This document shows positions 3,294-44,227 of a stretch of DNA of 44,227 nt, in pieces. The stretch is from contig MCFE01000698.1 in NCBI GenBank assembly GCA_002104905.1, positions 1 to 44,227 on the forward strand, read 5' to 3'. Position 1 is the stretch's first letter. Each line of letters begins with the position of its first letter. The notes under the pieces were generated by a model, which did no database searches, had not been told where the DNA came from, and was given only the letters and a program-made list of their open reading frames with translations. The translations under genes and the position numbers were made by a program. The stretch is from Basidiobolus meristosporus CBS 931.73. Lineage: Eukaryota; Basidiobolomycota; Basidiobolomycetes; Basidiobolales; Basidiobolaceae.

Positions 3294-4167
3294 TTAAGAT
3301 GGCACCAAGCTCTCTTGATTTGGTTGAGTTTTGACCTGGTTAAGGTTTGTCTCCATTGGGGTAGCTGCCGGTTTACAGTCTTCAATTTTGTACTTCTTTA
3401 GTATATCTTGAATATACTTGGATTGGCTTAGGGTGATAGTCCGGGTACTTCTGTCTATGGAGAACTTAATCCCTAAGTAGTAACTGAGTTCTCCTAGATT
3501 GGACATCTTGAACTCCTTAGATAGGCTGGATTTTGTCTCTTCCAATGTTTCTAGGTTATTGGTGGCTATAATAAGATCATCCACATATAGAGCTAATAGA
3601 ACTGGATTTGCTCTATCTGGCTTATAGTATATGCTATAGTCAGCATTACTCCTTTTGAAACTCAAAGGTTCCAAAATAGAATCTATCTTGCAATTCCAGG
3701 CTCTTGGTGATTGTTTAAGAACATATAGTGACTTTTTAAGCTTGCAGACCAAATGGGGGTTATCTTGGTCAAGAAACCTATCAGGCTGGTCCATATACAC
3801 ATCCTCATCAAGTTCTTCATTCAAAAATGCAGTTTTTACATCCATTTGACAAATAAAAAACTTATATTTGGCTGCAATAGCCAATATTAATCTGATGGAA
3901 TTAAATTTGGCTACCAGTACAAAGGTCTCAGTATAGTCAAGTCCTTTTGTTTGAGAGTATCCTTTGGCTACAAGTCTTGCTTTGTATCTTTCAATTGTAC
4001 CATCAGCCTTGTATTTTGCCTTGAAGACCCATCTGCATCCAATTCATTCTTGGTTGAATGGTAATTTGACTAAGTCCCAAGTTTGATTTTCCATCAGGGC
4101 CTGATATTCCTCAGTCATTGCAGATCTCCAAAACTTCATCTGAGGGGTATTTAGGGCCTCTTTTACA
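3294..4167 (-). pseudogene. copia copy 1 reverse transcriptase
   Basis: Residues read WVFKAKYKADGTIERYKARL, KYKFFICQMDVKTAFLNEEL, YGLKQSPRAW (here YVLKQSPRAW) and the catalytic motif LYVDDLIIATNN, followed by GELSYYLGIKF and SKYIQDILKKY. This is the standard Ty1/copia RT core (RVT_2). An in-frame stop near 4047 and another near 4170 break the frame. The YVDD motif is intact here, in contrast to copy 2, where it reads YRDD. Confidence 0.92.
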
Positions 4168-4169
4168 GT

Positions 4170-5103
4170 CTAGGGTTCATCAATATGGACTGAATAGGCA
4201 TAGGCTAAGTTTGTACCTTCATTAATATAGTAATTTGGGCTATTTCTTTTCTGATTCGATCTCCAGGCATTTGATACTGGAATGATCACTTCTGGGATAT
4301 TCTTGGGCACTGATTCTGGCTGAACCACAGCTGTAGAGTCCTCTGGAGTGAAAAAATCTGCATTGTTTTGCTCTGATTCAAACATGACAATTGGTGGACT
4401 TAAGATCAAATTTTTGTCATCATCTGATGTCATTTTTTGTGAAAATTTTGAATATTCATCAAACACTAAATCCCTCGACTTGATCAGCTTCTTTGCTTTG
4501 GTATTGTAGAGTCTGTATGCCTTACTCTCATTGCAGTAGCCCAAAAATATGCATTTTACACTTTTTGGCTCATATTTTGACTGATTTCCGGCCAGTTTTT
4601 TGGCATATGCTGTATACCCAAATATTCTTAGATGTTCTCCACTTGGTCTGCATTTATACCATGCTTCAAATGGAGTAGAATCACAAAGTATTCTCGTATA
4701 ACTCCTATTTTTAAGATATACAGCAGTGGCAACTGATTCCGCCAAAAATCATAGGATAATTTTGATTGTGGATCATAGATCTTGCCATATCAATTATTGA
4801 TCTGTTAGCACATTCTGCTACTCCATTTTGCTGTGGGGAGTATGGTACAGTAGTCTCTTGCTTTATCCCATGAATTTTGCAGAAGTGGATGAAGAGTTTT
4901 GAGGTATATTCTCCACCATTGTCAGAGCATATTTTCTTGATTTTTTTACCAGTTTCTCTCTCCACCATGGCTTTAAACTCCCTGAGCTTAGACAGAGCTT
5001 CCTCCTTTCTCTCCATGAAGTAGACCCATGTGTATCTTGTATAATCATCAATAAAGTGATCAAATACTTCATCCCACCTAAGGATAAATTTGCATAGTTC
5101 CAC
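4170..5103 (-). pseudogene. copia copy 1 integrase core and C-terminal linker, frameshifted
   Basis: Two overlapping frames (5103-4711 and 4745-4170) together encode the integrase core: FDHFIDDYTRYTWVYFM, ICSDNGGEYTSKLF with the second catalytic Asp, and PYSPQQNGVAECANRS with the Glu position (GVAE). The copia C-terminal region follows (LRIFGYTAYAKKL, KCIFLGYCNESKAYRLYN). The frame changes at about 4720-4745, so integrase is not translated whole. Confidence 0.9.
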
Positions 5104-6573
5104 AAAGATCTGAGTAAATTAGATCTGATTTTTTCTTAGTTTTGATTAACCCAGAGCTCTTGAACGGCTGTCTGGCTTGTTTCCCATATATGCAGGCTTC
5201 ATAGTGCTCCAAATTAGCTGGGGGATCAATTTTCACTCCAGAAATTAGCTGATCTTTGATCATTTTGCGCAAATAATCAAAATTGATGTGCCCAAATCTC
5301 CTGTGCCAAAGCATTGGTGTTTCTTCATTTAGGTTACTTATATTGGCTTCCAGATTTGATGGAATATAAGTAAACTTGTATAGATTCTGATCTCTGATGC
5401 CCAAAGCAATATGGGCACCATTTTGATCAGTGATCCTGCATCCAGAATTGTCAAAACTGAAGCTGAGTCCTTCTGCTGTGGCCTTGCTTACAGAGAGTAG
5501 GTTCTTAGCTATTTCTGGTACATAGAGTACTTCTTTAAAGGTCAGTGTATGGCCTCCTTCACTGCTTCTAAGGTTTATTTGAATAGTTCCTTCTCTCACT
5601 GCTTCAAGTGTTCTATCTTCACCCATGAAAACCTTTGTGATTGGAACTTCTTGATATTGGGTAGAAAGTTCTTTTTGGTGTGTGAAGTGCTGAGGAGCTC
5701 CCGAGTCAATATACCATGTCTGAGAACCCTTGTTTATGGTCATATTAAGTGCAGATATGAATAGTCTATTTTCAGTTGTTGCTGCATTTCCATATTCAGT
5801 CTTCTTTTGCAGATAATCTCTCTTTTTGAGACACCAGTCTGATGTGTGTCCTTTCCTTTTGCAGCAGTTGCAAAACTGGTTGCTGTTGCCTTTGAAGGGT
5901 TTTGGGTACCTCCTTTGCTGGCTATCATTGCTTATTAAAGCATCTTCTTCTTCCTTCTTATTGGCGCTTGATTTTCTTAATTCTTCATCCAGGAGCCTTC
6001 TATATACGTTATTTAAGGTCAAATCTTCAGTTCTGTACTCTAGGGGTGATACAAGGCCCTGAAACCCATCTGTCAGGCTATTCAGGATGGTAACTATTAC
6101 ATCCTCATCAGTAGTTGGTATGCCCACAGATTCCATCTCATCTACCAGCAGGGTAATTCTGTTAATTAGATTTTTCATTTTTTCTCCAGGCTGCATCTTT
6201 GTAGTGAAGAATTTTTGTCTCAGATACATTTTCTTGGCAGCTGAACATGACTGGTAGGTGTCTTCTAATGCTGTCCAGGCATTCTTTGCTGTTTTTGCTC
6301 CTGAGCATTGAATTAGCAATTTGTCCTTAACATTAAGGCAAATGCAGTTAAAGGCACTTTGTTCTTTCTTCTGGTACTTTAACCCTTCCTCTCCCATGTT
6401 ATTAGCAGGGCATTCTTCACTCATGACAATATCCCAAAGGCCTCTTTCTTGTAGCAGCATCTTCATCTTCACCTTCCACACTTGGTAGTTATATCCATCC
6501 ACTTTTCAGCAGAGGGGAAAATTCCAGTAATAGCAGTAGTAGACACTGCAGAGAGTGACAACTTGGGGCTCAT
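5078..6573 (-). pseudogene. copia copy 1 gag, protease and integrase N-terminus
   Basis: From an ATG at 6573-6571 inside the primer-binding site, the frame runs about 23 codons, shifts by 1 nt near 6503, and continues for 474 codons to 5078. Order of domains: gag (DGYNYQVWKVKMKMLLQERG, then the UBN2-like region TAKNAWTALEDTYQS), a CX2CX4HX4C zinc knuckle (CNCCKRKGHTSDWC), aspartic protease active site (WYIDSGAPQHFT), and the integrase zinc-binding pre-domain (MLWHRRFGHINFDYL). In that pre-domain the usual first Cys of the CxxC pair has become Tyr (HYEACIYGKQ). Confidence 0.93.
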
Positions 6574-13063: not shown

Positions 13064-14125
13064 TTGTGGAGAATATACCTCAAAACTCTTCATCCACTTC
13101 TGCAAAAATCATGGGACAAAGCAAGAGACTACTGCACCATACTCCCCAAAGAAAAATGGAGTAGCAGAATGTCCAAATAGATCAATAACTGACATGTTTT
13201 TTATCAATGACCCATAATCAAAAATTATCCTATGATGTTTGGGCGGAATCAGTTGGCAAAGCTGTATACCTTAAAAATAGGGGTTATAGCAGAATACTTT
13301 GTGACTCTTCTCCATTTAAAGCATGGTATGGACACAGATCAAGAGCAGAACATCTAAGAATATTTGAGTGTACAGCATATGCCAAGAAACTGCCTGGAAA
13401 TCAGTCAAATTTGAGCCAAAAAGTGTAAAAAGCCTATTTTTGGCCTACTGCTGTGAGAGTAAGATGTACAGACTCTACAATACCAAAGCAAAGAAGCCGA
13501 TTAAGTCCAGGGATGTGTTGTTTGATAAAAATTCAAAATTTTCACAAAAATTGACATCAGATAGTGACAAAAACTTAATCTCAAGTCCACCAATAATCAG
13601 TAATGAATCAGAGCAAAACAATGAGACCTTTTTCACTCCAAGAAACTCTACAACCATGGTTCACCCTGAATCAGTGCCCAGAAATATCCCAGAAGTGATC
13701 ATTCTAGTGTTATATGCCAGGAGATTCAACTGGACAAGAAATAGCTCAAATTACTATATCAATGAGGGTACAAACTTAGCCTATGCCTACTCAGTTTATA
13801 TTGATGAACCCCAGACCATGAAAGAGGCCCTAAATAGCCCTCAGACAGAGTTTTGGATATCTGCAATGACTGAGGAATATCAAGCCCTGATGGAAAATTA
13901 AACATGAGACTTAGTCAAATTACCAGTCAGCCAAAAATCAATTGGATGCAGATGGGTCTTTAAAACAAAGTATAAGGCTGATGGCACAATTGAAAGATAC
14001 GAAGCAAGACTTGTGGCCAAAGGATTCTCTCAAACAAAAGGACTTGACTATACAAAGACTTTTGCACCAAAAGCCAGTTTTAATTCCGTCAGATTGATAT
14101 TGACTAGTGCAGCCAAATACAAGTT
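13064..14125 (+). pseudogene. copia copy 2 integrase and RT N-terminus
   Basis: Frames give EYTSKLFIHFCKNHGTKQET, GVAECPNRSITDM, AWYGHRSRAEHLRIFECTAY, MYRLYNTKAKKPIKSRDVLF and YAYSVYIDEPQTMKEALNSP, then RT residues WVFKTKYKADGTIERYEARL and FNSVRLILTSAAKYKFF. Frameshifts near 13210 and 13370-13428 and a stop at 13899 inactivate it. The sequence runs into the solo LTR after residues KYKFF. Confidence 0.9.
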
Positions 14126-14484
14126 CTTTATGTTGTAAAAATTCGTAATTCCACCTAAATATTCACCTAACTTAGTCACTTAGATCATCACCTTCAAATC
14201 CTAGAGAATACTGACCAAATTCCTTGTTGGGATTTACTTGGAATGTTTTTACCAAAATACCAGGTACCCAGAACATGAAAATTCTCAAAGTTGTCCAAAC
14301 AGCCCCAAACTTTGCACACCTGTTCTTGGGACCTTCCTTAACCTACTCTATGTGTTTGTAATGCCAAGACCAGGTAAAAGTATAAATACTACTTTTACAT
14401 TCAATAAAGCATTAAGTGAAAACCACATAATCTACTTGATCTCCCAATCACTTCCAATATCTCCAAGACTCTTACAACACGTTA
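14126..14484 (+). repeat. Solo LTR (14131-14479) with target duplications, inside copia copy 2
   Basis: A 349-bp LTR, TGTTGTAAAA..CTCTTACAACA, with flanking 5-mers CTTTA (14126-14130) and CGTTA (14480-14484) that differ at one base. Deleting the LTR and one 5-mer rejoins AAG TTC TTT ATA CAT CAA ATG GAT, reading KFFIHQMD. This matches KFFICQMD in copy 1, so the boundaries are exact. TATAAATA and AATAAA signals are present. Confidence 0.96.
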
Positions 14485-15742
14485 TACATCAAATGGATGT
14501 AAAAACTGCATTTTTGAATGGAGTACTTGATCAGGATGCATATATGGACCAGTCTGATGGGCTTGTTGACCAAGATAACCCCCATTTGGTCTGCAAGCTT
14601 AGAAAATCTCTCTATGGTCTCAAACAATCACCAAGAGCCTGGAATTGCAAGATAGATTCTTATTTGGAATCTTGGAGTTTTAGAAGGAGTAATGCTGACT
14701 AAAGTATAAACTATAAGCCAGATAGAGAAAATCCATTTCTATTAGCTCTATATAGGGATGATCTAATTGTAGCCACCAATAATATAGAAACTTTGGATCA
14801 GACTAAATCCGGCCTATCTAAAGAGTTCAAGATGTCCAATCCAGGAGAACTCAGTTATTACCTAGGGATAAGGTTCTCCATAGACAGAGGTACCCAGACT
14901 ATCACCCTAAGCCAATCCAAGTATATTCAAGATATACTAAAGAAGTATCAAATGGAAGACTGTAAACTGGCAGCTACCCTTATGGAGACAAACCTTAATG
15001 TGGTCAAGACTCAACCAAATCAAGAGAGCTTGGTGCCATCTGAAAGCCCTGAATTTCCTTATTGGTCTATGGTTGGCAGTCTGATGTATAACATGCTTGG
15101 AACATGTACAGATATTTCACATTCAGTGGGAGTTGTCAGCCAATATAGTTGGAACTATGGATCTGATCATATTGCAGCAGTTAAATAGATTTTTAGATAC
15201 CTAAAAGGAACTGCTGATATCTGCTTAAGATATACTTATAATGATTCAGAACAGAATCTTGTGGGATACTCTGATGCTGATTGGGGACAAAATTTAGAAG
15301 ACAGAAGATCCACCACAGGATACACCTTTCTTTACTGTAAAGGAGCAATATCATGGAATTCAAGAAAGCAACCAACCGTAGCACTTTCCACCACAGAGGC
15401 AGAGTAAATGGCAGCCTGTGAAGCTACAAAAGAAGCAATGTGGTTAAGAAAGCTGTTTACAGATTTAGGCCTATGTCAAAAAATGCGTATTACTTTATTT
15501 CAAGATAATCAAGGATGTATACAATTAGGTAGAAATCCAACTTTTCATGCTAGAACCAAGCACATAGATATTAGACATCATTTCATACGTGAAGCTATAG
15601 AGAATAGCTTAGTTAGCTTAGTTTACTGTCCTACAGATGAAATGATTGCAGACATATTTACCAAACCATTAGCTAGAGACAAGTTTGAATATCTTAGGTC
15701 AAAATTAGGACTAGTCAGTATGAACATTTAGCTGAGTGGGAG
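14485..15742 (+). pseudogene. copia copy 2 RT core and RNase H
   Basis: Residues IHQMDVKTAFLNGVLDQDAY, YGLKQSPRAW, a mutated catalytic motif LYRDDLIVATNN (YVDD to YRDD), GELSYYLGIRF, then RNase H with VGYSDADWGQNLEDRRSTTG, LSTTEAE, KHIDIRHHFIREAIE and DIFTKPLARDKFEYLRSKLG. Stops at about 14700, 15186 and 15406 break the frame. This copy keeps the RNase H segment that copy 1 has lost. Confidence 0.92.
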
Positions 15743-29836: not shown

Positions 29837-30378
29837 ACGAATTGGTGCCCGGTAATATCTATGCAATTCCCCTACAACGAACCAACTACTGGATGTTTTT
29901 ACTCTATTAAAGAATAATTAAGGAAATCCACCCAACTGTACCTCTGCTCAAGTCCATCATCCCTGTTTTAATATGAATTCCAATGCTGACACTGCGGGTC
30001 AATACCATGGGTTGGATCAATCGCTAACGTATATTCTATGGTTTCCGTGCTATTCAGACTCCCAAGCTTCATTGGTGGGAAATAGGCGATTGTTTCGTAC
30101 AATCTCATCGTGAATTAAGCTCATGTATGAGCATATTGCCTATACTATAGCTTCTGAGTAATCATTATGCAAGCCACTGGTGGCTTAGTCGTTGGTCTTG
30201 ATGGCGATAGTGACTCCAAATATTACGAAATGAACTTCCCATGCTTTCCAACCATTGCTCGTCTGGGTGGCTTAGACACTGGTCTTCCGGTGGTTTCTAG
30301 GGCAAACGTATATAAGAGCGGTTGAAGCCACCATCCAATCTACAGCAAAGTTTCTTCGCTAAATAACTAACACCGACC
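29837..30378. other. SRP68 3' region and upstream region of the repeat-protein gene
   Basis: Contains the SRP68 3' UTR, an internal near-repeat of GTGGCTTAG..TGGTCTT (30179-30199 and 30265-30286), and a TATA box at 30309-30316. No ORF of note. Confidence 0.6.
30309..30316 (+). promoter_or_regulatory. TATA box of the repeat-protein gene
   Basis: TATATAAG, 63 nt before the ATG at 30379. This is a well-placed TATA element, suggesting a strongly or conditionally expressed gene with a 5' UTR of about 30-40 nt. Confidence 0.7.
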
Positions 30379-31407
30379 ATGTCTTACTCTCGCCAACCAC
30401 AACACTCTCGTCCTAACCGCCAATACGAGAATGAGTACGAAAGAGACTCTCAAAGACACCATCCCGGAAGCCGTTACTCATACCCTAACACTGATCAAGA
30501 ACACAGATTAAGCGAAGGCCGCTATGGGAGCAGATACGGTCGCCAATACGGCCGCGAGTTTGATGAGGATCAGGAACAGTACCCTCGCAGCCGCCGTTAC
30601 GGCCGCGGTCAAAGTCGTCAATACGAAGATGATGAAGATTACCCCTACAGCCGCCGCTATGGTCGTGGATTTGGTCGCGAGTACGAGGATGACGAAGAGT
30701 TCCCACGTAGCCGCCGTTACGGTCGCGGTCTAGGCCGTCAATATGAGTATGATGAGGAGTACCCACGCAGCCGCCGTTATGGTCGTGGACAGGGTCGCCA
30801 ATATGAGGACGATGAGGAATACCCACGCAACCGTCGCTACGGACGTGGATTTGGCCGCCAGTATGAGGACGATGAGGAGTACCCATACAACCGTCGCTAC
30901 GGCCGCGGTCAGGGCCGTCAGTATGAGGATGATGAGGAGTACCCACGCAGCCGTCGTTATGGCCGTGGCCAAGGCCGTCAATATGAGGATGATGAGGAGT
31001 ACCCACGCAACCGTCGTTATGGTCGTGGTCAGGGTCGTCAATATGAGGATGATGATGAGTACCCACGCAACCGTCGTTATGGTCGTGGATTCGGTCGTGA
31101 ATACGAAGATGAGGAGGAGTATCCACGCAATCGCCGCTACGGCCGTGGACAAGGTAGCCGATATGAAGATGAGGAGGAATATCCACGCAACCGCCGTTAC
31201 GGCCGTGGACAGGGTAGCCGATATGAAGAGGATGAGGAATATCCACGCAACCGCCGTTACGGCCGTGGACAAGGTAGCCGATATGAAGAGGATGAGGAAT
31301 ACCCTCATAACCGTCGTTACGGCCGTGGACAAGGACGTCAATACGAAGACGAGCAAGAATACCCCCGTAACCGTCGCTACGGCCGTCAAAAGGATAGCCA
31401 ATACTAA
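30379..31407 (+). CDS. Uncharacterised 342-aa polyampholyte repeat protein (RRYGRGQGRQYEDDEEYPRN units)
   Basis: A single exon. About 54 N-terminal residues (MSYSRQPQHSRPNRQYENEY..) rich in Arg, Tyr, Gln and Ser are followed by about 14 tandem 20-residue units of consensus YGRGQGRQYEDDEEYPRNRR, ending GRQKDSQY. Each unit has a basic aromatic half (RRYGRG) and an acidic half (EDDEE). There is no signal peptide, membrane segment or cysteine. DNA differences between units fall largely on third positions in this frame, which argues that this frame is the translated one. I do not recognise the family. The Tyr/Arg/Gly pattern suggests a disordered, possibly phase-separating or RNA-binding protein, which is inference only. 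A TATA box lies 63 nt upstream. Confidence 0.8.
   Translation: MSYSRQPQHSRPNRQYENEYERDSQRHHPGSRYSYPNTDQEHRLSEGRYGSRYGRQYGREFDEDQEQYPRSRRYGRGQSRQYEDDEDYPYSRRYGRGFGREYEDDEEFPRSRRYGRGLGRQYEYDEEYPRSRRYGRGQGRQYEDDEEYPRNRRYGRGFGRQYEDDEEYPYNRRYGRGQGRQYEDDEEYPRSRRYGRGQGRQYEDDEEYPRNRRYGRGQGRQYEDDDEYPRNRRYGRGFGREYEDEEEYPRNRRYGRGQGSRYEDEEEYPRNRRYGRGQGSRYEEDEEYPRNRRYGRGQGSRYEEDEEYPHNRRYGRGQGRQYEDEQEYPRNRRYGRQKDSQY
30541..31392 (+). repeat. 60-bp coding minisatellite, about 14 units
   Basis: Period of exactly 60 bp from about 30541 to 31380 plus a partial unit. Because the period is a multiple of three and the units lack stops, frames on both strands stay open across it (for example minus-strand frames of 325 and 227 codons), which are by-products. 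Confidence 0.95.
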
Positions 31408-39109: not shown

Positions 39110-39807
39110 TGTTGTATCCAAGAGAAAAGTGTAATAAAACTCTTGAATGAGTTAACTGAACCTAAGTGACAACTAAGTGCAGAATCTTAGAATTGTCAAG
39201 GGTGACAGAAATATTAGCAGCAAAGTTCTGGTCTAATATTGATTTTGTATATGGTTCAGTTGGGCTATAAAGACAACAAAGTTGGTTTGCTATACAGGCT
39301 AGGCTTGGTGCTCTTGGGAACGCTAGATATGCTAAGCTTGGGTGGAAACTAGAACAGAATTGTTGAATTCTTAATTTTGCTGAGGCACAATCTTAATTTT
39401 GTTGAGACACACACTAAACTAAGAGGTTCTGTAATCTTTATTTATATTTTTCTGATCTAGTTGAATTAGTAAGCGCCAAGAGACTGGACTAATTGAAATT
39501 TGTTGGTGTGTTGATAGGTGCATAAGGCAAATGAAAAATTGCATCATTAATCAGCTGATGTTGTGGCAACTACTAAGTGGTTGGATAGCTCTCAAATGAC
39601 TAATCCTTTGGAAAGGTTTAGCAGATCAGCTGAGGACATAATGACCATATGAAAATTGATCAGGTGTGAGAACTAAAAATAGATTCTGAGAAGTGATAAA
39701 ATAAACCATAACAGGGATTAGTTATGTTTGGGTTAGGGAAAATCAGGTAGGTACTAGATTTTCTAACAAAGTGAAATTGGATTAGTTTTAAATGTTGATG
39801 CACAACA
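39110..39807 (-). repeat. Chromovirus LTR, distal copy (698 bp)
   Basis: TGTTGTATCC at its left end and GATGCACAACA at its right end; the same family as the solo LTR at 11245-11942, but reversed. It is followed at 39808-39856 by 49 bp matching the very end of the chromovirus pol (40554-40602), so it is the 3' LTR of a second, almost wholly lost element. Confidence 0.9.
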
Positions 39808-39856
39808 TTACTTCCTTCTGGAAGAGGAGTTTTTTAATACCTTCTGGGCTCCCCTG
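39808..39856 (-). pseudogene. 49-bp remnant of the chromovirus pol 3' end
   Basis: Matches 40554-40602 with about six substitutions, including the purine-rich end next to the LTR. It is all that remains of the internal region of the element that owned the 39110-39807 LTR. Confidence 0.85.
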
Positions 39857-40553
39857 TGTTATATCCAAGAGAAAGTGTAATAAAACTCTTGAATGGTTTA
39901 ACTGAACCAAAGGGGCAATTAAGTGCAGAATCTTAGAATTGTCAGAGAGTGGCGGAAATATTAGCAGAAAGATTCTGATCTAATATTGGTCTTGGATATA
40001 GCTGGGTTGGCTATAAAGACAATGATATTTGTTTGCTAGGCAGGCTAGGCTTGGTGTTCTTTGGAGTCCTAGATATACTAGGCTTGGATAGAAACTAGAA
40101 CTGAATTGTTGGATTCTTATTTTTGCTGAGACAGAATCTTAATTTTGTTGAGACACACACTAAACCAAAAGGTTCAGTAAACTTTACTTATACTTTTCTG
40201 ATCAAGTTGAATTAGTAAGCACCAAGGGACTGGATTGATTGAAATCAATTTGGGTGTTCATAGGTGCATAAGATAAATGAAAATTACATCATCAATCAAC
40301 TGATGTCATGGCAACAGCACAGTGGTTGGATAGATCACAGATGATCAATCACCTGGGAAGGCTTGGCAGATGGGTTGATAACATAATGACTAATTGAAAA
40401 TAGATCAGGTGTGATAGCTAAAAATGGATTCTGAGGTGGGATAAAATAAACTGTAACTGGGATTTGTTATGTTTGGGTTAGGGAAAATCAGTTAGGGTAC
40501 TAGATTTTCAAATGGAGTAAAATTGGCTAAGTTTTCAATGTTGATGCACAACA
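39857..40553 (-). repeat. Chromovirus LTR, proximal copy (697 bp)
   Basis: Starts TGTTATATCC and ends GATGCACAACA on +. It directly abuts the stop codon of the pol fragment, so the purine-rich GGAAGGAAGTGA at the pol end doubles as the polypurine tract. Contains the motif GTTTGGGTTAGGGAAAATC. Confidence 0.92.
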
Positions 40554-41479
40554 TCACTTCCTTCCGGAAGAGGAGTTTTTTGATACCTTCTGGGTTCCTC
40601 TGTGGCTCCAATACTGATCAGTGATAGCAACATCATTAAAGTTGGTGTAAGGATCCCAGGTGTTGTGATTGGCATCATAGCTTTTCCACTTGACTAAATA
40701 AAGGCAATTTGGTTCTTCTCCATCATGGTCCACAATAGCTTCAACTTCATAGGATTCCAAAGTTACTGGCTCTTGAGAAATAAGTTTGAGTGAAGAAGGT
40801 GGAAAGTTTTTGGGTAGCAGTGCTCCAGTGTCATCCTGAAGTACATAAAATCCTCCAGTAGTGCATCTGACAGCCTTGAATGGTCCTTCATACTTGGGGT
40901 CAAGCTTAGATTGCCGGATTGGATCTAGTGTCATGACATATGACCCATATGGGAAGCTGCTGTTCCTGTGTCTTGAGGCGTACGTTGAAGTCATCTTTTG
41001 CTGAGAGGCCTTACTTCTGGCACTGATAGCAGGGTAGACATTGTTGGTAAGGTACTCAAGCCGGTTCTTTAGCTTATCTGTATTCAAACTTGCTAACTCT
41101 GTATTCTGGTAGTCTCCAAAGTGGTTGTATTTTCTTCCAAACATCAAGGAAAATGGTGTTGATCCATGTAGAGCGGCAATTTTGGTGTTGGTAGCATACT
41201 GTAGAGTTGGAATGTACTTGTCCCAATTCTTCTTGATACCTTTGATAGATTTCCTGATGATGTTCACTGAGGTCTGAACATGTCTTTCAGCCAGTCCATT
41301 AGTTTTGGGATGATATGGAGTGATCAGAGGGTGATCAATGGCGCTATTCTGGCAAAGGGCTTTGATCACGTGATTCACAAATTCTGTTCCATTATCTGAT
41401 TGAATGACGTTAGGGAATCCAAAAAGGCAGAAGAGCTTGAATAGTTCTTGTGCAATAGTGGCAGCATACTTGTCTGGGA
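40554..41479 (-). pseudogene. Ty3/gypsy chromovirus integrase-chromodomain fragment, cut at a telomeric seed
   Basis: A single open minus-strand frame to the native stop at 40554. From its upstream end: IPDKYAATIAQELFKLFCLF, GFPNVIQSDNGTEFVN (second catalytic Asp), PYHPKTNGLAERHVQTS (catalytic Glu), TPFSLMFGRKYNHF, a GPY/F-type stretch (KLDPKYEGPFKAVRC) and a C-terminal chromodomain (YEVEAIVDHDGEEPNCLYLV, KWKSYDANHNTWDPYTNF). The frame is intact but lacks the zinc-binding domain, the first catalytic Asp and everything upstream. At 41479/41480 it joins TAGGGTTAGGG; the residues read further upstream come from telomeric and SINE sequence, not integrase. Confidence 0.95.
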
Positions 41480-41490
41480 TAGGGTTAGGG
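41480..41490 (+). repeat. Interstitial telomeric seed 1
   Basis: TAGGGTTAGGG at the junction between the truncated integrase and the SINE-like unit, oriented toward the chromosome end. Confidence 0.85.
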
Positions 41491-42016
41491 GGGAGGAAAG
41501 TCACCAAGTGGTGAAATCTTTATTTACCTATGACAAGTATCTAAAGAAGCCAAGTTAATCTGAAGTAATTCCTAGAAAGCTAGGTCTGAGAGATATCTTC
41601 CTGGTAAGCCAGGTCTGAGAGTTGAGAAGCTGAGTGGTACTATATTTCCTAGTTAGCTAGGTCTGAGAGAGGTTTCCTGGAAAGCCAGGCCTGAGAAGTG
41701 AGAATCTGAATATATCTGAGCTAAGTTATACTGGTTTGCGGTAGCTGGATTGTGGCCGGAAAGGCCAGTAGACTGGGGGAACTGAGATGAATTTCTGGGC
41801 AATCACTGGCCAAACTTACTAGGCAAATCTGGCCATTAGCATTTCAAGGATTTCAGCCAATCAGAGCCTTTACTTTGCCCGATGGTTGATCAAGCCATCT
41901 CCCAATGAGCACACATCAATTTATTAATCAAATTTTTGCTGGATCCAGGATTTGAACCCACAACCATGGGTATGGAAGGGTTAGGGATAACCACAAGGCT
42001 AAGTGTTCTTGGTTCA
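41491..42016 (-). mobile_element. tRNA-headed SINE-like element with a LINE-type 3' tail, inserted in telomeric repeats
   Basis: On the minus strand the unit starts after CCCTAA with a tRNA-like head: A box TAGCCTTGTGG (consensus TAGCTCAGTGG) and B box GGTTCAAATCC, their starts 43 nt apart, about the normal tRNA spacing (44 nt). A body of about 400 bp includes four small hairpins (41571-41689). The last 50 nt (AAATAAAGATTTCACC, a TCACC..GGTGA stem-loop, then a C-rich end joined to CCCTAACCC) nearly match the end of the LINE at 42029. No coding frame. Both flanks are TTAGGG repeats. It may instead be a LINE variant with a different 3' region; the tRNA-like head favours a SINE. Confidence 0.7.
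41571..41689. repeat. Array of four covarying small hairpins (two tandem 77-bp units)
   Basis: Stems CCTAG/CTAGG at 41571-41584 and 41648-41661, and CCTGG/CCAGG at 41600-41613 and 41676-41689. Each has a 4-nt loop (AAAG, TTAG, TAAG, AAAG) and is followed by TCTGAGAG or a close variant. Units 1-2 and 3-4 form a duplicated pair 76-77 bp apart. The A-T pair in one hairpin type is a G-C pair in the other. Confidence 0.85.
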
Positions 42017-42028
42017 TTAGGGTTAGGG
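42017..42028 (+). repeat. Interstitial telomeric seed 2
   Basis: TTAGGGTTAGGG between the 5' end of the SINE-like unit and the 3' end of the LINE. Confidence 0.9.
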
Positions 42029-44013
42029 GGGAGACAGTCACCAACAGGTGAAATCTTTATTTCAGTTGAAACAAAGAAGCCAGCGCTACTGTTGTAGCTT
42101 TGATACAAGAGTGTGTAGCTGAGGGGAATTTGTAGGTAAGTTAATAAGAAGTGATGATAGTTCTTCAGTGCTCAAGACACTGTTCAGTGGGAAGGGGGGT
42201 AGCAAGAGAGGTAAGAATGACTTGTGAACAACATTAATGAGGGGAATGTGATAAGGATTGATATTCATCATAAAGGGAGTGTGCTGCTGCAGATATTGCT
42301 GCCAAAGGTCTGTCAAGTACTTCAGGTAGGCCAGCTTGGGTTTTTCTGACTGCAGAATATAGTGAGCAAACTTCTTGACTTCAGGATCTCCAAGTATAGT
42401 TCTCCAGCAGGAGCCAGGTGTTGTGTGGTGTGTTCTCTTCCAGGCCTTAATCAGTGGGTTGTTGCAGTTGTGAAGTCTGAGGTATAATCTGGTTCTAAGG
42501 TAGAGAAGTCTGATCTTATAGGGCATAAACCCAAAAGCACCAAGAATAGCATGTCTGTAGGGGCATTCAGGCAAATGAGGCACCAAGGAGGAAATGCACC
42601 ATACTGCAAACTTGTCAAGCTTAGTGCAGTCTCTAGAAGTAAGAGAGAGAAGTGGTAAGCCAAATTCCAGGACAGGGAAGACAAACTGCTTGAGTAGAAG
42701 GAGGCAGCTGGGAGCTGAAGTTGTAGGAGGAGTAACAGCCAGTAGCTTGTGGAGTGCCTGTCTTGCCAGGACAATTCTCTTCTTCAGGTGTGCTCCAGAG
42801 TCTAGTCCAGTAGGAAGGAAAGGAAAGCCAAGATATGTAGCAGAAACCTGAGCAGGTAGAGTGGAGTTCTCCAAGTTGATGGGAGAGCCCAAAGGTACTG
42901 TCTTTGCAATGGAAAGCTGGAGATTATTCTTCTGCAGATACTGGTGGATGGTCTGGGAGTCTTGTTGCACATTGGAGGAGGATATTCTGATGTCATCAGC
43001 AAAGAGAGTAACCAGGCAGTCAGCTGAGAGTCTTGGGAAATCATTCAGGAAGATGGCAAACAGTATAGGACCAAGCACAGAGCCTTGAACCACTCCATTA
43101 GGAACTGAGAACACAGCTGATTGCTCACTTGGGTGCAGAATTCTTGCTTGTGGATCCAGAAACAGAGACCTGACAAGGAGGGTGAGAGAGGTACTGGAGA
43201 AGCATTGCAACTTGGACCAAAGCAGATTTCTGTCAACTGAATCAAAGGCCTTAGTAATATCAAACAGAACAGAGGGATACTTGCACTGGAGAGAGTGATC
43301 TTGGCTAAGTATGACTGCATATTCCAAGGAGAGGCCAGGAACAAAGCCAAACTGTGCAGGATGAAACTTGAGAGAGTCAGAGTAGAGCTCCTGAGCAAGC
43401 AGAAGCTCAAACACCTTTCTGCAGGTGGGCAGCAGAGATATTGGCCTGTAGGAGCTAGGATCCAGGTGCTTTCCTTTACCCTTGTACAGTGGCAGAACAT
43501 TTGCAAAGGACCATTCCTCAGGAGTAGAAAGCTGGGCTGAGCATTGCTGAAACAGTGGAAGCAGAAGTGCAGACATGGCCTTGGTACTAGTCTTCAGAAG
43601 CTCATAGGAGATTGTGTCCACACCTGGAGCAGTAGAGTTGGGAAGCCTCTTGAGCACATTATGGATTCTCCTTTGATCAAGTGCAAGTGGGATGGGCAGA
43701 GTCTGGAAGTCAGGATGAAAGCCAGGAGTTGAGTACTGCTTTGTAGAGAAGAAGATGTTAGCCAGCTGTTCTGTTGAAGGTAACTTCCTGGAAGAGGGCC
43801 TCATTGCCCTGTAGAGTCTTGATACTGTTCTTGTTATAGAGTTGGAAGATTGCAGAGGCAAGGAACTCATAATATGATCCCAGAGCTGAGTATGCAGAGT
43901 GTGGTGAATTGCCTTGGAGTGGTGTATTGCTGTCAGGAGGAGTTTCTCTGTTTTTGGGTTAGGGAAGCTCAGGTAGCTTTGTTGCAGGGCTGAAACAATG
44001 GATTCCCATTTTC
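42029..44013 (-). mobile_element. Telomere-anchored non-LTR retrotransposon (LINE), 5'-truncated
   Basis: A minus-strand LINE whose 3' end abuts TTAGGGTTAGGG (42017-42028) and whose truncated 5' end abuts the terminal telomere at 44014. The short 3' UTR (42029-42085) has AAATAAAGATTTCACC, a TCACC-TGTT-GGTGA stem-loop, and a C-rich end that runs into CCCTAACCC. No poly(A) tail. Orientation (3' end toward the centromere, 5' end toward the telomere) is what target-primed reverse transcription from a telomeric 3' end produces. Confidence 0.9.
42086..43870 (-). pseudogene. LINE reverse transcriptase ORF, N-terminally truncated
   Basis: 594 codons from the first ATG; the frame is in fact open for 47 more codons back to 44012 and then into the telomere as (LeuThr)n, so the true N-terminus (gag-like part, endonuclease) is missing. 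RT motifs in order: LPNSTAPGVDTISYELLK, WSFANVLPLYKGKGKHLDPS, SYRPISLLPTCRKVFE, FGFVPGLSLEYAVI, VLFDITKAFDSVDRNLLW, NGVVQGSVLGPILFAIFLND and the catalytic TLFADDIRI (FADD at residues 290-293). The roughly 250-residue C-terminal region has no recognisable RNase H. The RT itself has no stops or frameshifts, so the copy is fairly young. Confidence 0.95.
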
Positions 44014-44227
44014 TTAGGGTTAGGGTTAGGGTTAGGGTTAGGGTTAGGTTAGGGTTAGGGTTAGGGTTAGGGTTAGGGTTAGGGTTAGGGTTAGGGTTAG
44101 GGTTAGGGTTAGGGTTAGGTTAGGGTTAGGGTTAGGGTTAGGGTTAGGGTTAGGTTAGGGTTAGGGTTAGGTTAGGGTTAGGGTTAGGGTTAGGGTTAGG
44201 GTTAGGGTTAGGGTTAGGGTTAGGGTT
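44014..44227 (+). repeat. Terminal telomere repeat (TTAGGG)n
   Basis: About 214 bp of TTAGGG running to the end of the window, with several 5-nt TTAGG variants interspersed (for example near 44045, 44117, 44151 and 44167). The G-rich strand runs 5' to 3' outward, as expected for a right-hand chromosome end. Confidence 0.98.

Follow-up and report, generated by a model that had tools for sequence, protein, structure and literature searches.

Telomere-targeting long interspersed nuclear elements (LINEs) have, to our knowledge, arisen several times. HeT-A and TART of Drosophila lie with their 3' ends centromere-ward, TRAS1 and SART1 of Bombyx carry two open reading frames (ORFs), Zepp of Chlorella forms LINE stacks at telomeres, and UnaL2 and UnaSINE1 are a LINE and a short interspersed nuclear element (SINE) with a shared 3' hairpin tail; we know of neither Zepp nor the UnaL2/UnaSINE1 pair combining a SINE with telomere targeting. 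In fungi, MoTeR1 and MoTeR2 of Magnaporthe (Pyricularia) oryzae reside in TTAGGG telomeres with their 5' ends directed towards the chromosome end, form head-to-tail arrays with short TTAGGG tracts in between, have truncated 5' ends with seed nucleotides, and comprise a non-autonomous partner with shared termini (PMC7367193). FoTeR of Fusarium oxysporum is a telomere-only LINE with TTAGGG at its 3' side and tandem repeats in its 5' part (PMC12857005), and full-length copies of CNL1 of Cryptococcus neoformans are found at chromosome ends, in arrays and flanked by telomeric repeats (PMC12810828). The fungal telomeric LINEs returned by our literature search are all single-ORF elements of the restriction-endonuclease or R2-like types. 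Here, we analysed a 44,227-nucleotide stretch of Basidiobolus meristosporus CBS 931.73 (contig MCFE01000698.1, labelled C977; hereafter the window), which represents one chromosome end in an assembly of 89,006,234 bases and 1311 contigs and carries a LINE designated LINE-A. We consider it probable, at roughly three in four, that LINE-A is a telomere-targeting non-long terminal repeat (non-LTR) retrotransposon which, together with hitchhikers that share its tail, is primed by chromosome ends with short TTAGGG tracts on the C-run of its RNA.

All the traits listed above for MoTeR, FoTeR, and CNL1 recur in Basidiobolus, and the three share with it the telomeric site, the distal 5' end, and TTAGGG at the 3' side. 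MoTeR1 differs in its restriction-enzyme-like (REL) endonuclease, whereas the Basidiobolus LINE has a predicted apurinic/apyrimidinic endonuclease (APE)-type endonuclease joined to the reverse transcriptase (RT) and a separate ORF1; MoTeR2 lacks an ORF1-like gene and does not belong to the RNA polymerase III SINEs. FoTeR has a single ORF with a REL endonuclease and 3-7 repeats at its 3' side (PMC12857005), as against mostly <1.5 here, and the words SINE, non-autonomous, and readthrough are absent from the main text of that report. CNL1 is a single-ORF relative of the R2 superfamily and inserts also into a reporter gene (PMC12810828). Membership of LINE-A in the MoTeR/FoTeR/CNL1 type was excluded by its two ORFs and N-terminal APE-like domain in place of a single ORF with a C-terminal restriction-like endonuclease. 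TRAS1 and SART1 (R1 clade) resemble LINE-A in their APE-type endonuclease and telomeric-repeat target and differ in the TTAGG target, the poly(A), and the requirement of SART1 for at least three repeats (PMC7265360); the Basidiobolus LINE, in contrast, ends in a C-run without poly(A), lies on one-unit tracts, and has a putative readthrough stop. HeT-A is Gag-only and relies on the RT of another element, like an ORF1-only element described below (PMC5009743, PMC4700185). HeT-A and TART differ in that Drosophila lacks telomerase, whereas a telomerase gene and TTAGGG arrays are present here. A first-pass annotation of the window, made from its letters alone, had likened this chromosome end to HeT-A/TART and SART/TRAS; in anatomy, MoTeR, FoTeR, and CNL1 are nearer than HeT-A.

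The window runs from chromosomal sequence through a short telomere tract, a SINE-like element in the 3'-to-5' direction, a second short tract, and LINE-A from its 3' end to its truncated 5' end, into the telomere:

40554-41479, minus strand: fragment of a gypsy-type integrase with chromodomain (frame 40554-41519; Chromo 3e-10; partial rve match at 1.1e-5, under the rve cut-off)
41480-41487, plus strand: proximal telomere-like junction TAGGGTTA, preceding the G-run of the SINE
41488-42016, minus strand: SINE-like element with its 5' end near 42016, identified by A- and B-box-like motifs and the 3' tail shared with the LINE
42017-42025, plus strand: junction tract TTAGGGTTA, from the SINE 5' end to the LINE 3' G-run
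42026-44013, minus strand: LINE-A, 5'-truncated copy, with its 3' end at 42026-42031, where the plus-strand G-run is the C-run of the RNA
42031-42069 (bounds approximate), minus strand: shared 3' tail consisting of AATAAA, the hairpin UUCACC-UGUU-GGUGA, and the C-run
42086-44013, minus strand: C-terminal two thirds of ORF2 (RT with FADD motif; antisense RT frame 42086-44119)
44014-44227, plus strand: terminal TTAGGG array of 214 nt, reaching the contig end and sharing 2 nt with the broken LINE 5' end

On the plus strand, TTAGGGTTAGGG at 42017-42028 leads into the G-run at 42026-42031, which is followed by AGACAGTCACC, the LINE 3' end. The 5' truncation has removed the endonuclease part of ORF2 from this copy. 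The integrase fragment is curtailed at its upstream side, at the junction 41480-41487, and is old chromosome sequence beneath the element stack. Every part named in the first-pass annotation (TTAGGG units, LINE 3' untranslated region (UTR), antisense RT, truncated 5' end, and terminal telomere) was found in the sequence. The proximal TTAGGG is present but amounts to only two units, and what precedes it is not plain subtelomere but the SINE-like element in the same orientation, which had been missed. The interpretation as a LINE placed 3'-end-first at a telomere is supported. The picture is changed by the shortness of the proximal tracts, by a tail and target common to several elements, and by the fungal LINEs being nearest in anatomy.

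The assembly holds 645 exact matches to a 25-mer from the LINE 3' end (602 forward, 43 reverse), and scoring these for TTAGGG, as had been proposed along with the annotation, located the motif 0-6 nt before the 25-mer in up to 512. The SINE 3' 26-mer occurs at 409 places (at most 356 with TTAGGG) and a general tail pattern at 1554 (at most 1283); the two TTAGGG counts are upper limits, since double counts are visible among the SINE and general-tail matches listed. In the loci that were fetched, TTAGGG was present 0-6 nt upstream of 117 of 127 tails and of 668 of 177083 random positions (0.38%), indicating an association beyond chance. Positions were analysed for the first 100 of the 645 LINE matches, 89 of which are on contigs of known length. 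All 32 LINE 3' ends on contigs >60 kb were 301-18236 bases from the end faced by their 5' side, and the remaining 57 of the 89 were on shorter contigs. Mostly internal sites with poly(A), named beforehand as the contrary outcome, were not what we found: the 32 long-contig copies are near ends, and the inspected junctions have no poly(A). In the fetched loci, 125 of 127 tails were within 14 kb of the contig end faced by their 5' side, and a TTAGGG array was present at 30 of the 39 contig ends inspected. One contig (C424, 312558 bases) has SINE stacks and arrays at each end, in mirror image, and probably represents an entire small chromosome. For TTAGGGx3, the assembly has 8002 forward and 103 reverse occurrences, nearly all telomeres being at right contig ends, which is probably an assembler habit; the forward bias of the LINE 3' ends parallels this bias.

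Junctions were compared in a set of 123, four of the 127 tails classed as 'other' being left out; the script did not pick up tails whose loop has 6 nt, and tails preceded by GAGGGAA, mostly of the LINE-B family described below, formed a class of their own. The G-run was 4-11 nt long and was directly preceded by TTA in 106 and by TA in 117 junctions. The lack of poly(A) remarked on in the first-pass annotation was confirmed at the LINE 3' end in the window and at the inspected 3' junctions, the 127 listed tails showing a C-run joined to telomeric flank. The TTAGGG junctions and the absence of poly(A) exclude poly(A)-primed or random insertion. The proposed priming of the LINE on the TTAGGG 3' strand fits these C-run junctions, the priming step itself being what we infer from them. 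Telomeric sequence reached 9 nt or more in only 33 of the 123 proximal tracts, the other 90 being under 9 nt (<1.5 units). Terminal arrays measured 108-222 nt (29 ends), and a uniform insertion point in such an array would leave <9 nt in ca. 4% of cases; thus, random insertion into a full array is unlikely, and a uniform point of insertion was excluded. On the distal side, 13 junctions between LINE and arrays of at least three units, some of them interior arrays, had 0, 1, 2, and 3 shared nt in 2, 2, 5, and 4 cases, respectively. These overlaps fit telomerase seeding, as for MoTeR truncations, of which 17 of 23 have in-frame seeds (PMC7367193). Two pieces of a telomerase gene were found in the assembly, one of them with an in-frame TAG that may mark an intron. 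In these chromosome-end elements, the 3' end points to the centromere, the C-run of the RNA passes directly into the GGG of TTAGGG, and the 5' side, often truncated, bears new telomere repeats.

Elsewhere in the genome, longer LINE-A copies measure ca. 4.6-4.8 kb, and the copies have a constant 3' end with many 5' truncation points, as is characteristic of non-LTR elements. Their 5' UTR contains one to three copies of a ca. 101-bp repeat. CCCTAACCCTAA is also seen within the 5' UTR, either by chance or as a telomere-protein site. The full ORF2 of another copy matched RVT_1 at 2.6e-25 and encodes an RT of the LINE type. Counted between stops, ORF1 comprises 523 codons; the 922 codons of ORF2 follow in frame, with a TGA as the sole separator. 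This TGA is followed by CTA, and TGA CTA was present at the boundary in 22 of the 22 LINE-A copies listed. ORF2 was intact in 12 of 15 spanning copies, and copies are ca. 99% identical. In the 12 intact ORF2 sequences, which were chosen for intactness, the ratio of nonsynonymous to synonymous polymorphism (pN/pS) was 0.23 over the whole frame; it was 0.42 for the RT part and 0.07 for residues 1-140. Since the first Met of ORF2 is residue 142, the value of 0.07 upstream of it indicates that the post-stop stretch has been selected as protein despite having no AUG. UGA-CU(A) is a stop that has been found experimentally to be leaky in fungi (PMC4207609). The boundary thus combines this context with a selected in-frame extension, the sequence marks of a stop-readthrough gene, and readthrough of UGA-CUA is the simplest and likely explanation of ORF2 synthesis, to which a non-AUG start may be the alternative. 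UGA-CUA-linked ORFs of this kind, with readthrough as the probable link, would make this LINE a clear example of recoding.

The second family, LINE-B, has an ORF2 ca. 47% identical to that of LINE-A over 801 residues and the same tail and target. Its boundary reads TGA CTA in L115, the sole copy covering the site, which is frameshifted further on; copy L114 had no match at the boundary site. Residues 1-213 of LINE-A ORF2 gave fold matches to the TRAS1 (1wdu), R1, and APE1 endonucleases, which were tied, and the motifs GDLN and SDH are present; the endonuclease upstream of the RT is thus predicted to be of the APE type. A LINE without endonuclease had been suspected from a 2.84-kb stretch and was dropped since longer copies hold the domain. 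A Glu-to-Asp replacement in the endonuclease is common to LINE-A, LINE-B, and the relatives P0001 and P0003, that is, the whole lineage examined. A search for relatives in viral contigs gave 15 pattern matches, none of which was confirmed. The Basidiobolus LINE adds an APE-type case to the telomeric LINEs, in the early-diverging phylum Basidiobolomycota, and our literature search, at the level of search results, returned no report on telomeric elements of Basidiobolus.

The SINE-like element, apparently non-coding, measures ca. 530 nt and is present with 409 tails; as in other SINEs, the 3' tail is shared with a partner LINE. Near its 5' end, the head carries an A-box-like motif, TAGCCTTGTGG, and at a distance of 32 nt a B-box-like one, GGTTCAAATCC, by comparison with the RNA polymerase III box consensus. 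CCCTAACCC also occurs between the two boxes, by chance or as a telomere-protein site. ARAGORN found no tRNA in the window, and Rfam found none in 41400-42200, where it gave one sub-threshold chance match; a tRNA origin of the SINE is thus likely rather than established. The SINE has no TTTT and ends, like the LINE, in AATAAA, hairpin, and C-run; tandem units of ca. 530 nt occur. A third element of ca. 950 bp has ORF1 only, with a 240-242-residue protein in 5 of the 26 tails listed, one such protein being 35% identical to the C-terminal part of LINE ORF1. AATAAAGAT and a hairpin occur together in 154 tails of the fetched loci, with the exact stem in 152 and loops varying by family; single-strand folding recovered the hairpin for the LINE tail (z -4.2) and the SINE tail (z -0.54). 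These two elements and LINE-B appear to be hitchhikers or tail-sharers using the LINE-type tail and target. The SINE-like element would thereby have gained telomere targeting through a borrowed 3' tail, a combination for which our literature search found no precedent.

Judged from the sequence, the elements would be mobile and cap chromosome ends in the following manner. A ribonucleoprotein of ORF1 protein, ORF2 endonuclease-RT, and RNA, its ORF2 supplied by readthrough of the UGA-CUA stop ending ORF1, would recognise the 3' hairpin. A G-strand 3' end with a short TTAGGG tract would pair by its GGG with the RNA C-run and prime reverse transcription, the complementary DNA becoming the new G-strand of the chromosome. 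Where synthesis stops, telomerase would use 1-3 nt of telomere-like sequence and add TTAGGG, or the next element RNA would be copied to yield stacks; the three tail-sharing elements named above would rely on the same tail. Stacks of retrotransposons beside telomerase would be a new way of living at telomeres for mobile DNA. With independent junctions available by the hundreds from a single genome, the encounter between LINE RNA and telomere end becomes directly testable.

Several observations weigh against this mechanism. No exact TTAGGG was within 6 nt of 133 of the 645 LINE tails (ca. 21%), 6 of 123 junctions had not even TA before the G-run, and G-run lengths may contain sequencing error. 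A SINE-LINE pair on C726 is internal, the end that it faces being 59 kb away, and the copies on C217 are 12-14 kb from the faced end of a 13.8-kb contig. Nine of the 39 inspected contig ends had no array, and among the left contig ends, of which 40 were sampled, no telomere stood at the start. The short tracts could be RNA-templated or products of later shrinkage. The SINE tail folded no better than shuffled sequences (the z of -0.54 above), and the minimum-energy fold of the ORF1-only tail was without the shared hairpin. As for the enzyme, Asp (ORF2 residue 33) replaces the catalytic Glu of other LINEs, Pfam endonuclease scores were 18.2 and 16 bits, under the cut-offs, a PDB sequence search with the endonuclease part gave no matches, and the pN/pS values come from copies picked as intact.

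The alternative that survives best, although we consider it unlikely, is that the element RNA itself ends in CCCCCCUAA(CC), having been read into the telomeric flank, and that the junction TTAGGG is copied from it; the tail would then pair with almost any 3' end, and serial copying of RNAs would give SINE-LINE and SINE-SINE dimers. The junction next to a full-length SINE 5' end was exactly CTTGG-TTA-Gn in 21 of 30 cases despite differing G-run length (one more was left out of this comparison for short context), and erosion of a full array in the interval from one event to the next would not produce identical 3 nt. At some junctions (C2:260232, C577:91116, C1245:18143, and C957:187139), a truncated element continues by its own native TTA, TA, or TAGA into the G-run and nothing is added. 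RNA polymerase III transcripts end at TTTT, and the transcript of a SINE without it should therefore extend into downstream CCCTAA. However, the telomerase RNA template has the identical letters, and one unit added before priming gives the same junctions; recombination can also copy tandem pairs, and 18 of 92 other junctions have at least 12 nt of telomeric sequence, as real tracts would. We hold it somewhat more doubtful that the endonuclease nicks full-length arrays as in TRAS/SART, with proximal arrays shrinking later by breakage or unequal exchange. The predicted APE-type, TRAS1-like fold and the breakage and healing of interstitial tracts in Magnaporthe (PMC7367193) are consistent with it, whereas arrays of 108-222 nt predict few of the 90 short tracts seen among 123, and SART1 depends on a poly(A) tail as well as on no fewer than three repeats (PMC7265360). 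Equally speculative is a reading in which the elements form a second telomerase-like end-building system beside working telomerase, their RNA ends carrying a telomere template (C-run and UAA); they would cap near-repeatless ends by serial template jumping, and within a cooperating set the RT-less SINE and the ORF1-only element would have specialised roles. Passive spread of old subtelomeric repeats by break-induced replication or unequal exchange, without present targeting, is improbable: exchange between ends is common in fungi (PMC8381367) and tandem SINE units exist, but the many 5' truncation points and flanks each have a fresh TTAGGG-G-run junction, and the near-identical copies with 12 of 15 ORF2 intact are under purifying selection. 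False joining of telomeric reads to repeats, to which the one-sided telomere motif and the arrayless contig ends might point, is highly improbable given a precise junction form repeated hundreds of times with differing flanks and its mirrored occurrence on C424.

Further features were observed in the window. Two abutting direct repeats of ca. 746 nt at 39126-40604 (78-92% identical in pieces) adjoin the gypsy integrase and are perhaps tandem long terminal repeats; TTTGGGTTAGGGAAAATC is present in each. Broken copia-like polyprotein frames, judged by eye, lie at 3294-6505 (minus strand) and 13368-15188 (plus strand), and a reading frame at 30367-31407 (plus strand) contains 13.7 copies of a 60-bp repeat of the RRYGRGQGRQYEDDEEYPRN type.
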